A DNA stretch of 64,000 nt. Source: an uncultured Schlesneria sp. GTDB taxonomy: Bacteria > Planctomycetota > Planctomycetia > Planctomycetales > Planctomycetaceae. A program made the translations under genes and the position numbers. The stretch spans positions 1-64,000 of the forward strand of contig CAIULL010000113.1 in the NCBI GenBank assembly GCA_903899985.1, in the 5' to 3' direction. Below, one piece after another: positions 60,620-63,271 of the stretch (position 1 is the first letter of the stretch; each line of letters begins with the position of its first letter). The notes beneath the pieces were generated by a model that searched no databases, was not told the origin of the DNA, and worked only from the letters and a program-made list of their open reading frames with translations.

Positions 60620-62197
60620 ATGAAATTTCTTGCAGGCCACACGGTCGGTATCGATTTGGGAACGACATACTCGGCAATTGCACAGCTCACTAAAGACGGC
60701 AAGCCAGTTTCCCTGTTGAACGCCGACGGACGAAATATCACTCCTTCCGTCGTGCTGCTGGGAGCTGACGGACAGGTTGTCGTCGGTCCGACCTTCGAAC
60801 GAATCTCGCAAGAATCGCCCGATCATATCGTGGAAGCGATCAAGCGACAGATGGGTAACAAAGACTTCTTCGTCATCTATCAAAACAAGAAACTGACCGC
60901 AGAATTCCTGTCGGCTTTGATTCTGAAAAAACTGAAGCAGGATGCCGAGAAGCAGATTGGACCGATCGCCAACGCCGTGATCACCGTCCCTTACTACTTC
61001 AACGATGTCCGCCGCAAAGCGACTCAGGACGCAGGCCGTATTGCCGGCCTGAACGTTGTCGACATTATCAACGAGCCAACCGCGGCGACCCTGGCTTACG
61101 CCTGGATGAAGGGCGAACTGGGGCGATCGGACCTGAAGCAGGAATCAAAAACGATTCTCGTTTACGACCTCGGGGGTGGAACGTTCGACGTGACCGTTGT
61201 CCGGTACACACCAACCCAGTTCAAAGTGCTGGCGACGGACGGTGACGTGATGCTGGGGGGGATTGACTGGACGAAGCGAATCACCGACCACGTCGCCGAG
61301 CAATTCTTCCGCAAGTTTAATGATGACCCTCGTACCGACGCAGAAGCCATGCGTAACTTTACGGTGGAATGCGAAGACGCCAAGCGTGCCCTCAGTACCA
61401 AGACCCAGGTTCCGCTTTCAGTCTACTTCCACGGCAAGACGCTGACGCTGCAATTCACTCGAAAAGATTTCGAGCGAATGACCTCCGACTTGTTGCAACG
61501 AACTCGCGATACGACGGAACTGGTGCTGCAACAGGCCGGGGTCCAACCGGGAGTCCTGGACGAAGTCGTTCTGGTCGGTGGTTCGACCTATATGCCTGCT
61601 GTGGAATCGATGCTGACAGAAATCTGTCAGCGAACACCGTCACGTGAACTTCGTCCGGAAGAAGCGGTCGCTCAGGGGGCTGCGATTCACGCCGCCATTC
61701 TGGAAGCCCGCGAGAATCGAGGTATCGAAGGACTGAGTGCCCTCGTCACGGCTCGATTGCGGTCGGTGCAGACGAGCGACGTAAATTCTCACTCGCTGGG
61801 AGTTAAGGTATCGAGCCCCGAGGATCGAACACGCAAGATCAACCACATCATGATCCCGCGAAACTCGCAGATTCCTTATAACATCAGCCAGAAATTCGTG
61901 ACGAATTCTGCTAACCAGAAAACGATTCACGTCTATATTCTGGAAGGGGATGCGACCGATCCTGAAGCTTGTACACAGATCGGCGATTTCCAGATCGTCG
62001 GACTTCCACCAAACTTGCCAGCCGGTTCTCCCGTTGAAGTCACATATAGTTACGATGCAAACGGACGCATCGGCGCCGTGGCGAAAGAACTGACTAGTAA
62101 TCGAGTTGCCACGACGGAAATCGTTCGTGCATCGGGACTGTCGGATCAAGGTGTCAATAACTTCGAGTTGCTCGCCAAGGACTATCAAGTCGAGTAG
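60620..62197 (+). CDS. Hsp70-like chaperone lacking C-terminal lid
   Basis: A 525-residue Hsp70. The ATPase domain shows TVGIDLGTTYSAIA (phosphate 1), ILVYDLGGGTFDVTVV (phosphate 2) and VVLVGGSTYMPAVESM (adenosine), with INEPTAATLAYAW. The substrate-binding beta domain follows from about 405 to 500. The protein then ends, whereas canonical DnaK is about 640 residues because of the helical lid. The start ATG at 60620 begins the N-terminus at once; the frame 18 codons upstream is not used. It is followed 24 bp later by a membrane J-like protein. Lid loss implies altered substrate release, perhaps with a dedicated membrane client. Confidence 0.92.
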   Translation: MKFLAGHTVGIDLGTTYSAIAQLTKDGKPVSLLNADGRNITPSVVLLGADGQVVVGPTFERISQESPDHIVEAIKRQMGNKDFFVIYQNKKLTAEFLSALILKKLKQDAEKQIGPIANAVITVPYYFNDVRRKATQDAGRIAGLNVVDIINEPTAATLAYAWMKGELGRSDLKQESKTILVYDLGGGTFDVTVVRYTPTQFKVLATDGDVMLGGIDWTKRITDHVAEQFFRKFNDDPRTDAEAMRNFTVECEDAKRALSTKTQVPLSVYFHGKTLTLQFTRKDFERMTSDLLQRTRDTTELVLQQAGVQPGVLDEVVLVGGSTYMPAVESMLTEICQRTPSRELRPEEAVAQGAAIHAAILEARENRGIEGLSALVTARLRSVQTSDVNSHSLGVKVSSPEDRTRKINHIMIPRNSQIPYNISQKFVTNSANQKTIHVYILEGDATDPEACTQIGDFQIVGLPPNLPAGSPVEVTYSYDANGRIGAVAKELTSNRVATTEIVRASGLSDQGVNNFELLAKDYQVE

Positions 62198-62221
62198 CAC
62201 CAAAAACAGGAGGTTTTCCCG

Positions 62222-63271
62222 GTGGCAATCGACGTTTACAAAGAGTGGCTGGGCATTCCGGAAGATCAGCGTCCGCCGAATCATTATCAACTTCTCCGCC
62301 TCGTTCAGTTCGAGGACGATGTCGATAAGATTCGGAAGTACTACAAAAAGTTGAATACGCACGTCCGCAAGTTTGCGTCCGGAACGTATTCGAACGAGTC
62401 ACAGACGTTGCTCAACGAGCTTGCCAAAGCGATGTTGTGCCTGACGGACGACGAATTAAAGCAGGATTACGACCGAAGTCTCGGTCGCGTGATCGACGAC
62501 CGGGACGAATCCGGTCGTCGACCGATGACGTCTTACCTTCAAGATGAAAAGGTGATTACGTCCGACCAGGCCAAAGAGGCGAAGGCTCACGCCGATCGGA
62601 CTGGACTTTCAGTTCGTGACGCGATCGTGCAGCTCAAGTACGTGGACCAGGAGGTTGCGGCACGAGCCTACGCCAACGAAATCGGTCGCTCGTATGTTGA
62701 TCTGGCGGATATCGTTCCTGAAAACGACGCATTGGACATGTTGCCAAAAAACGTCGTTCGGCGCCATAACTGCCTTCCACTATTTATCGATGAAAATGCG
62801 GTCGTCGTTGCCTGTGCTGATGAACCCGATTCCGAGCTGGAAGACGAGGTTCGACTCAGGTTCCAGAAACCAATTCGCCCGGTGATTGCTTCAGGCAAGT
62901 CGATCAATCAGGCGATTGCTGCGAATTATGCCGAAGGGATGCGTAAAGAAGTCACCGCTCCCACGAAAGGCTCCAGCAAAGCGGGAGGCAGCAAAGCGGG
63001 GGGCAAGAAAGCGGCCAGTACGCAGCAGAAGGCCGAGGCGGTTGTCCAGCTCAGCGACGCCGAAAAAGCTCAGCGAAAACAGCTGGGAATGATCTTTATG
63101 TGCTGGGCATTCGCCATCCCGGTGGCGCTGGATAACCTCGTCCTGTGGGACATGGTCTATCGGAAATTCATGCCACGAGTCTTTCAGTATTTCCCCTATT
63201 TTACAACGATCTTGATTGGCATTCCGTTGTTGATCCTGTTCTACAACACGTACGTTAAAGACAAGAAATGA
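62222..63271 (+). CDS. Membrane J-like + MshEN-like protein
   Basis: A 349-residue protein. Residues about 1-90 form a J-like helical domain (HYQLLRLVQFEDDVDKIRKYYKKLN) without the HPD motif, the planctomycete form. Residues about 100-240 match an MshEN (GspE N-terminal) domain (DEKVITSDQAKEAKAHADRTGLS; LPKNVVRRHNCLPLFIDENAV), which in other proteins binds c-di-GMP or nucleotides. A charged Lys/Ser linker follows, with two C-terminal membrane helices (IFMCWAFAIPVALDNLVLW and TTILIGIPLLILFYNTYV). The start is GTG at 62222 with GGAGG eight bases upstream. Lies 24 bp after the Hsp70 stop; operon very likely. Confidence 0.82.
   Translation: MAIDVYKEWLGIPEDQRPPNHYQLLRLVQFEDDVDKIRKYYKKLNTHVRKFASGTYSNESQTLLNELAKAMLCLTDDELKQDYDRSLGRVIDDRDESGRRPMTSYLQDEKVITSDQAKEAKAHADRTGLSVRDAIVQLKYVDQEVAARAYANEIGRSYVDLADIVPENDALDMLPKNVVRRHNCLPLFIDENAVVVACADEPDSELEDEVRLRFQKPIRPVIASGKSINQAIAANYAEGMRKEVTAPTKGSSKAGGSKAGGKKAASTQQKAEAVVQLSDAEKAQRKQLGMIFMCWAFAIPVALDNLVLWDMVYRKFMPRVFQYFPYFTTILIGIPLLILFYNTYVKDKK

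Follow-up and report, generated by a model that had tools for sequence, protein, structure and literature searches.

Near the 3' end of the window, the whole stretch of 64,000 nucleotides (nt) analysed here (positions 1 to 64,000 of contig CAIULL010000113.1, assembly GCA_903899985.1, from an uncultured Schlesneria sp. of the Planctomycetaceae), an Hsp70 gene is followed by a gene for a protein with a J-like domain, an MshEN domain and a membrane anchor. The Hsp70 has no lid and the J-like domain has no His-Pro-Asp (HPD) motif, which raises the question of how two such proteins could work together. We found that the pair is neither a truncation nor a local arrangement, and that it is widespread in Planctomycetaceae, with matches to the partner in 28 genomes of this family. 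We propose, with a probability of about 0.5, that the two genes encode a dedicated chaperone module, a membrane-tethered Hsp70/J-like pair working without HPD.

A conserved pair of lidless Hsp70 and membrane partner

A preliminary description of the locus had given both open reading frames (ORFs), their lengths, their frame and a 24-nt gap between them. The ORF list and the sequence agreed with all of this, and both genes lie on the + strand (Table 1). The Pfam HSP70 model covers residues 9-519 of the first protein (390 bits), and the equivalents of the ATP-site residues K70, P143, R151, E171, T199 and D201 are retained in all 142 aligned Hsp70 ORFs.

To define the C-terminal end of the Hsp70, we compared it with its orthologues. 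A scan of named genomes gave 197 relatives, of which we retained the best 80; an Hsp70 lies directly upstream of the partner gene in 63 of these loci (gap 3-337 nt). Whole Hsp70s were present in 61 of these 63, and all 61 are 523-528 amino acids (aa) long and end in Y-x-V-E or Y-x-V-D. The same end was found in 82 of the 83 Hsp70s of a larger alignment, the exception being YDIE at L165 (L, G and C are our handles for loci, genomes and contigs); the contig-cut Hsp70 of L103 ends YHIE. All members of this orthologue group of 83, which includes two paralogues (L196 and L197), have 10 residues beyond position 515, versus 89-117 in 20 lid-bearing DnaKs from related genomes. Because the orthologue ends are uniform, a frameshifted or lost lid downstream was excluded, and the lidless protein of 525 residues stands as first described.

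The partner was modeled by AlphaFold with a predicted local distance difference test (pLDDT) score of 86, residues 250-271 falling below 50. Pfam gave no match for its J-like part. A Foldseek comparison of the model with isolated J domains returned target template modeling (TM) scores of 0.51-0.85, most of them at least 0.65, with weak E values of 0.1-1.1 (6rzy, target TM 0.85; 1xbl, 0.67), and the DnaJ_bact model matched 31 of 61 partner orthologues (best E 1.4e-4). The N-terminal region is thus modeled as a J-domain fold with helices I-IV.

After poorly model-covering domains had been dropped and identical ones merged, HPD was found in none of 127 J-like domains (102 orthologue-like and 25 others). 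An R-x-aromatic motif (Y, F, H or W) occupies the site in 101 of the 102 and in 19 of the 25. Helix II mostly retains R38, Y41, K42 and K43 at the DnaK-contacting positions, Y41 and K43 being invariant. HPD is retained in two DnaJ-type proteins of the window's genome and in the window ORF at 4250. At the C-terminus, two membrane helices are predicted in 70 of 79 partners, one in eight and three in one. Taken together, Pfam, AlphaFold with Foldseek and helix prediction recovered the partner layout given earlier: an HPD-less J-like domain, MshEN and two C-terminal membrane helices.

The pairing extends far beyond one genome. Among 40 related genomes, the 26 with a full-length partner are the same 26 that have an Hsp70 of at least 53% identity, and the other 14 are without both; in 24 of the 26 loci the genes are adjacent on the same strand with the Hsp70 upstream (gap 11-497 nt). 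Across 392 genomes of the phylum, the partner was found at E < 1e-50 in 30, comprising 28 of the same family, G033 and the divergent G402. The genomes listed without a match number 20, none of the same family (335 further genomes stand outside this list). Of 59 genomes of the class, 28 have both proteins, one the partner only (G402), one the Hsp70 only (G391) and 29 neither, so that, of the 30 with either a short J-like protein or a close Hsp70, 28 have the two. The cuts for this table, an Hsp70 match at E ≤ 1e-115 and a J-like frame of at most 450 aa, were chosen after viewing the data, and G038 and G439, with Hsp70 matches of 43% identity and E 1e-92 to 1e-94, were counted as being without the Hsp70. 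A Fisher test gave 1.5e-14, a value too strong given the shared ancestry of the genomes. Adjacency and co-occurrence thus support the membrane-anchored Hsp70/J-like pairing of the preliminary description and show that it is conserved.

The J-docking site and a possible rebuilt contact

In Escherichia coli DnaK, Arg167 pairs with Asp35 of HPD and the linker residue Leu391 touches His33 (PMC13012618); the D35-R167 contact also appears in PMC5519331 (all papers are cited here from excerpts). In our alignment, position 167 (DnaK numbering) is Asp in all 83 orthologue-group Hsp70s, and Leu391 is substituted in all 83. E206 and E217 are each replaced by Arg or Lys in 79 of the 83. The mean charge of the strand segment is +1.86 in the orthologue group versus −3.21 in lid-bearing DnaKs, the latter having been picked partly by R167. 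The canonical DnaK group of the binned residue count (141 of 142 Hsp70 ORFs; L179_6, with Asp, fell between score bins) was filtered on R167, so its 19 of 19 with Arg was set aside; a recount of DnaKs picked by lid and linker alone was used instead, and gave Arg at 167 in 20 of 20. In the whole set of 108 lid-less Hsp70s, the position holds Asp in 103, Ala in four, Asn in one and Arg in none. Arg is retained in two non-canonical long-tailed Hsp70s (L202_16 and L208_2) and in the Hsp70 match from G038. Alignment against DnaK also revealed a deletion in the nucleotide-binding domain (NBD), in the same area as the lobe I deletion of HscC.

Judging from these residues, the J-docking site of the Hsp70 has been lost, and the protein is probably deaf to DnaJ. 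The preliminary description had left ATPase stimulation to a separate HPD-bearing J protein, with the one at 4586 as an example. The DnaJ-type ORF there is genuine, has HPD and lies 56 kb from the pair, but such help is unlikely because the residues that contact HPD in DnaK, R167 and L391, are replaced in 83 of 83 Hsp70s and the acidic helix-II patch is basic in most of them.

Several further Hsp70s were noticed. The window's genome has a second one of this kind (L059:874-3042, G000:C164), of 722 aa with Asp at 167, whose long tail holds two Cys-x2-Cys pairs and looks like a zinc ribbon; Hsp70 matches with frames near this length occur in many genomes of the family (judged by frame length). 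Two Hsp70 frames of this kind stand in tandem at L301:5019-8750 (G391:C48), with no J-like match in the 13 kb read, and at L195 (G020:C16) a frame of 1375 aa consists of an Hsp70 followed by more than 800 further residues.

For the pair itself, we propose the following mode of action. The C-terminal helices of the partner would anchor it in the cytoplasmic membrane, and its J-like domain would hold its own Hsp70 there in a physical complex. This Hsp70 would act with its ATP-site residues in place and without lid, hydrophobic linker and normal J-docking residues. An Asp on the Hsp70 opposite an Arg in the HPD loop would mirror the canonical pair, and we propose a swapped contact: Asp148, together with the Arg (and Lys) of the HPD loop, would replace the salt bridge between DnaK Arg167 and the HPD Asp. 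The rebuilt contact would make the pair mutually specific and insulate it from housekeeping DnaJ and DnaK. Whatever client it may have, the pair could then serve as a tethered peptide holder or a conformational regulator, comparable to Ssz1 with Zuo1.

Ssz1 of the yeast ribosome-associated complex is likewise a lidless Hsp70 with an altered linker, tied to a tethering J-type protein (PMC7083937, PMC8476630). In that complex, however, the J domain of Zuo1 works on a second Hsp70, Ssb, an N-terminal segment of Zuo1 binds Ssz1, and the tether is the ribosome. Zuo1 also has an HPD J domain, whereas the partner here has none; Ssz1-Zuo1 is further marked by a stable complex with ATP bound without hydrolysis.

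Several observations weigh against our proposal. The two genes are not adjacent in 17 of the 80 named loci (judged within the loci read, one of which shows just 333 nt upstream), and they lie apart in G019 and G021. Because the genomes are related by descent, the counts make the cases look more independent than they are. G402 encodes a divergent J-like/MshEN protein (L302, G402:C1; 367 aa, R-A-K at the HPD site), and there this query detected no Hsp70 other than a DnaK-like one of 39% identity; in G391 the Hsp70 stands with no short partner. R-x-aromatic is missing in six of the 25 other J-like domains, and MshEN is absent from both tail-anchored proteins scanned in family f3 (see below). Further, the J-like domain keeps a basic helix II, and the Hsp70 strand that it would face has become basic as well; the docking geometry is therefore not simply canonical, and a simple charge swap may be wrong. 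A read-through joint model with paired alignment reached a pLDDT of 63 and a predicted TM score (pTM) of 0.36 and was unusable. For these last two reasons, we claim the partnership with moderate confidence and offer the swapped salt bridge as a bold reading.

MshEN, other fusions and competing explanations

The Pfam MshEN model matches residues 155-240 of the partner (62.2 bits). Foldseek aligned the MshEN region with the N domains of MshE, PilF and PilB (first 16 rows, target TM 0.72-0.79, E about 1e-6 to 1e-5), the value of 0.79 being to 5htl, MshE with cyclic dimeric GMP (c-di-GMP), and TIGR02538, a PilB-type model, matches 61 of 61 partner orthologues. By these matches, the region is closest to the N domains of PilB-type ATPases.

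MshEN binds c-di-GMP through a tandem RLGxx..Q motif (defined in PMC5013675). In strict or relaxed form, this motif occurs in none of 80 partner orthologues, versus four of 17 PilB/GspE-type ATPases of the same genomes with the relaxed form. The window protein scores 13.2 bits against the NCBI c-di-GMP model, the cut-off being 38; some match to this model was obtained for 34 of 61 orthologues at E up to 10 (best 9.7e-7), by E value rather than by the score cut-off. We thus rejected gating by c-di-GMP, a second-messenger role that the preliminary description had raised and that the binding residues fail to support. With the motif absent, the region is more likely a docking domain than a c-di-GMP sensor, by analogy with the N domain of PilB, which docks PilZ, and that of EpsE, which docks its own partner (according to the titles of structure entries 7lkm and 7lko, and 2bh1, respectively). 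It may place the chaperone at a type IV pilus or type II secretion-like platform, a doubtful extension of our proposal; such a platform is a fair guess for the site of action and should be taken as just that. As a separate observation, two neighbouring PilB/GspE-type ATPase genes lie at L307 (G000:C85:35500-43000), of which the first carries an RFG c-di-GMP-type motif that the other lacks, and a model of the window's MshEN region scores the RFG-less ATPase above the other.

J-like domains and Hsp70s are associated elsewhere too. Of 13 genomes in family f3, 11 encode short J-like proteins, and precisely these 11 have an Hsp70 of 44-46% identity; the remaining two are without both. The two f3 J-like proteins scanned are tail-anchored by a C-terminal hydrophobic helix and have no MshEN by Pfam, so MshEN is not required for the Hsp70 link in general. 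In family f5, G387 alone of nine genomes has the short J-like protein, and it has the Hsp70; the other eight have neither. Of the 43 other J-like matches listed for 40 genomes, a lower bound on their total, six lie within 5 kb of an Hsp70 match (0.26 expected). Eight J-like proteins were taken from seven loci that combine an Hsp70 paralogue with a J-like gene; all eight have one or two hydrophobic helices, and four carry a domain attached according to Pfam (LamG, NPCBM, WD40 or TPR). These helix-bearing proteins were seen near Hsp70 paralogues at L176, L177, L178, L179, L180, L181 and L207, with the two genes divergent at L177, L178, L181 and L207. In one case the two parts are fused: L305_11 (L305:4463-6472, G010:C9) is a chain of 670 aa with a J-like domain (26-107, 35 bits) and an Hsp70 (120-659). 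The ORF after it (L305:6490-8091, 534 aa) bears another J-like domain.

From these cases we tentatively suggest a broader reading, which is possible rather than probable. Planctomycetota may have an orthogonal Hsp70/J lineage of lidless Asp167 Hsp70s and R-x-aromatic J-like domains, joined by a charge-swapped contact and fused in varied ways (MshEN, lectin, WD40, TPR or a plain tail anchor) into membrane functions.

How far could a more ordinary co-chaperone explain the pair? In this rather unlikely case, the partner would resemble DjlB and DjlC, which act with HscC: its J-like domain would stimulate the Hsp70 ATPase conventionally, the catalytic motif having merely diverged. The gene layout is similar, since in E. 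coli the gene of the specialised Hsp70 HscC lies near those of tail-anchored J proteins; a plasma-membrane function was suggested for that system, and the NBD of HscC lacks part of lobe I compared with DnaK, much where the deletion is found here (PMC8215388). The universal ATP-site residues and the invariant Y41 and K43 of helix II would also fit. However, HscC has the alpha-helical part of the substrate-binding domain and its ATPase is stimulated by DjlC, whereas the pair here has no lid and no HPD and its partner carries MshEN. HPD is missing in 127 of 127 J-like domains, and a conventional cycle uses the lid, the hydrophobic linker and R167, all of which are missing in 83 of 83 Hsp70s.

An unlikely alternative is that both genes serve one client or one machine, perhaps a pilus or a secretion platform, with the proteins not binding each other via the J-like domain. 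The 17 non-adjacent loci would fit this, as would MshEN, a domain of pilus and secretion ATPases, and the basic faces on both partners, which speak against canonical docking. There is also a precedent in motile cyanobacteria, where the specialised Hsp70/J pair DnaK1-DnaJ3 is linked with the motors of type IV pili: loss of DnaK1 strongly lowers motility in Nostoc punctiforme, and DnaK1 of this species met PilB in a two-hybrid assay, while that of Synechocystis did not (PMC9239167). DnaK1-DnaJ3 is described there as a DnaK/DnaJ/GrpE system, whereas the pilus link of the pair here comes from a PilB-type domain alone. Against this alternative, J-like domains with differing attached parts recur beside lidless-kind Hsp70s, once fused to one, and the shared element is therefore the J-like domain.

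HPD-less J-like proteins can regulate an Hsp70 system, as mitochondrial Pam16 does by acting on Pam18-Hsp70. Here the J-like domain might similarly be a decoy or brake that docks housekeeping DnaK via its basic helix II without stimulating it, the lidless Hsp70 being the output. That R38, Y41, K42 and K43 are mostly kept while HPD is lost would suit such a role. Pam16 resembles the partner in having an HPD-less J-like domain within a membrane-associated Hsp70 system; it forms a heterodimer with the J protein Pam18, however, and no such protein was seen here, though no systematic search was made. The co-occurrence is with the lidless Hsp70, DnaK-like Hsp70s occur also in genomes without the J-like protein, and no HPD protein is among the recurrent neighbours (largest clusters only), all of which makes this reading improbable.

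Very improbable is the platform first imagined for the locus, gated by c-di-GMP via MshEN and powered by a distant J protein with HPD, because the confirmed MshEN fold, the partial matches to the NCBI model and the precedent of Myxococcus xanthus CsdK1 and CsdK2, in which an Hsp70 comes with a domain from c-di-GMP signalling (PMC10313047), are set against a relaxed motif found in no orthologue and a lost J-docking site. In CsdK1 and CsdK2, moreover, a PilZ domain with a c-di-GMP-binding motif is fused to the Hsp70, whereas here a different domain without the motif sits in the partner.

The locus, its neighbours and what the pair may mean

The features of the locus are collected in Table 1. Elsewhere in the window, ORF 4250-5335 encodes a J domain with HPD (Pfam DnaJ, 30.6 bits) followed by a sub-threshold match to a leucine-rich-repeat model.

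Table 1. Coordinates of the gene pair and its features in the window
Feature	Position	Strand	Details and basis
Lidless Hsp70 gene	60620..62197	+	525 aa, ATG start, TAG stop; ORF list, Pfam, orthologue lengths
Asp148 codon, equivalent to Arg167 of E. coli DnaK, which contacts the HPD aspartate	61061..61063	+	Alignment
Interdomain linker VQTSD instead of hydrophobic VLLLD	61766..61780	+	Alignment
Conserved C-terminal Y-x-V-E of the Hsp70	62183..62194	+	Orthologue ends
AGGAGG, likely ribosome-binding site	62208..62213	+	8 nt 5' of the GTG of the second gene; sequence
Gene of J-like/MshEN/two-membrane-helix protein	62222..63271	+	349 aa, GTG start; ORF list, Pfam, AlphaFold, helix prediction
J-like domain, residues 3-90	62228..62491	+	AlphaFold model, Foldseek, profile matches
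Arg49-Lys50-Phe51 at the HPD site of the partner	62366..62374	+	Alignment
MshEN-fold region, residues 102-240, without c-di-GMP motif	62525..62941	+	Pfam, Foldseek, motif scan
Predicted membrane helix 1 of the partner, residues 290-308	63089..63145	+	Prediction
Predicted membrane helix 2 of the partner, residues 327-345	63200..63256	+	Prediction
Perfect 13-bp inverted repeat, 4-nt loop, directly 3' of the second gene; possible transcript end	63279..63308	.	Without clear T run

No third conserved operon gene was found across 83 loci, the largest other neighbour cluster covering 12 of them. In 11 of these 12, a hydrolase-like gene lies directly upstream of the Hsp70; ORFs of the other clusters lie mostly opposite the pair itself. 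The clustering was rough: of the 83 loci, it recovered the partner in 73 and the Hsp70 in only 59. The hydrolase-like gene, of about 880 codons and with the look of a secreted enzyme, is on the same strand as the Hsp70; the 11 loci are L085, L087, L096, L100, L105, L115, L117, L121, L123, L124 and L143.

Titles and abstract openings of the planctomycete literature gave no apparent description of such an Hsp70/J-like pair, nor did the excerpts of PMC8215388 and PMC7159879. The parts are of known kinds; their combination, with the paired change at the HPD contact, may be undescribed.

The contact between HPD and Arg167 is treated as a general switch of Hsp70s and is otherwise near-universal. If our proposal holds, a natural lineage with changes on the two sides of this contact, and with lid and linker lost, would illustrate the rewiring and insulation of a chaperone pair. 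It would also provide a natural test, D148 versus R49/K50, of J-domain roles other than HPD catalysis, and it would assign a role to two paired genes that are found widely in Planctomycetaceae and are, as far as the literature searched shows, unstudied. This second kind of Hsp70 in Planctomycetes has lost its lid and its J-protein contacts, and it occurs together with a membrane-anchored partner of its own whose key motif shows a complementary change; this suggests a chaperone system that may be wired separately from the housekeeping one.

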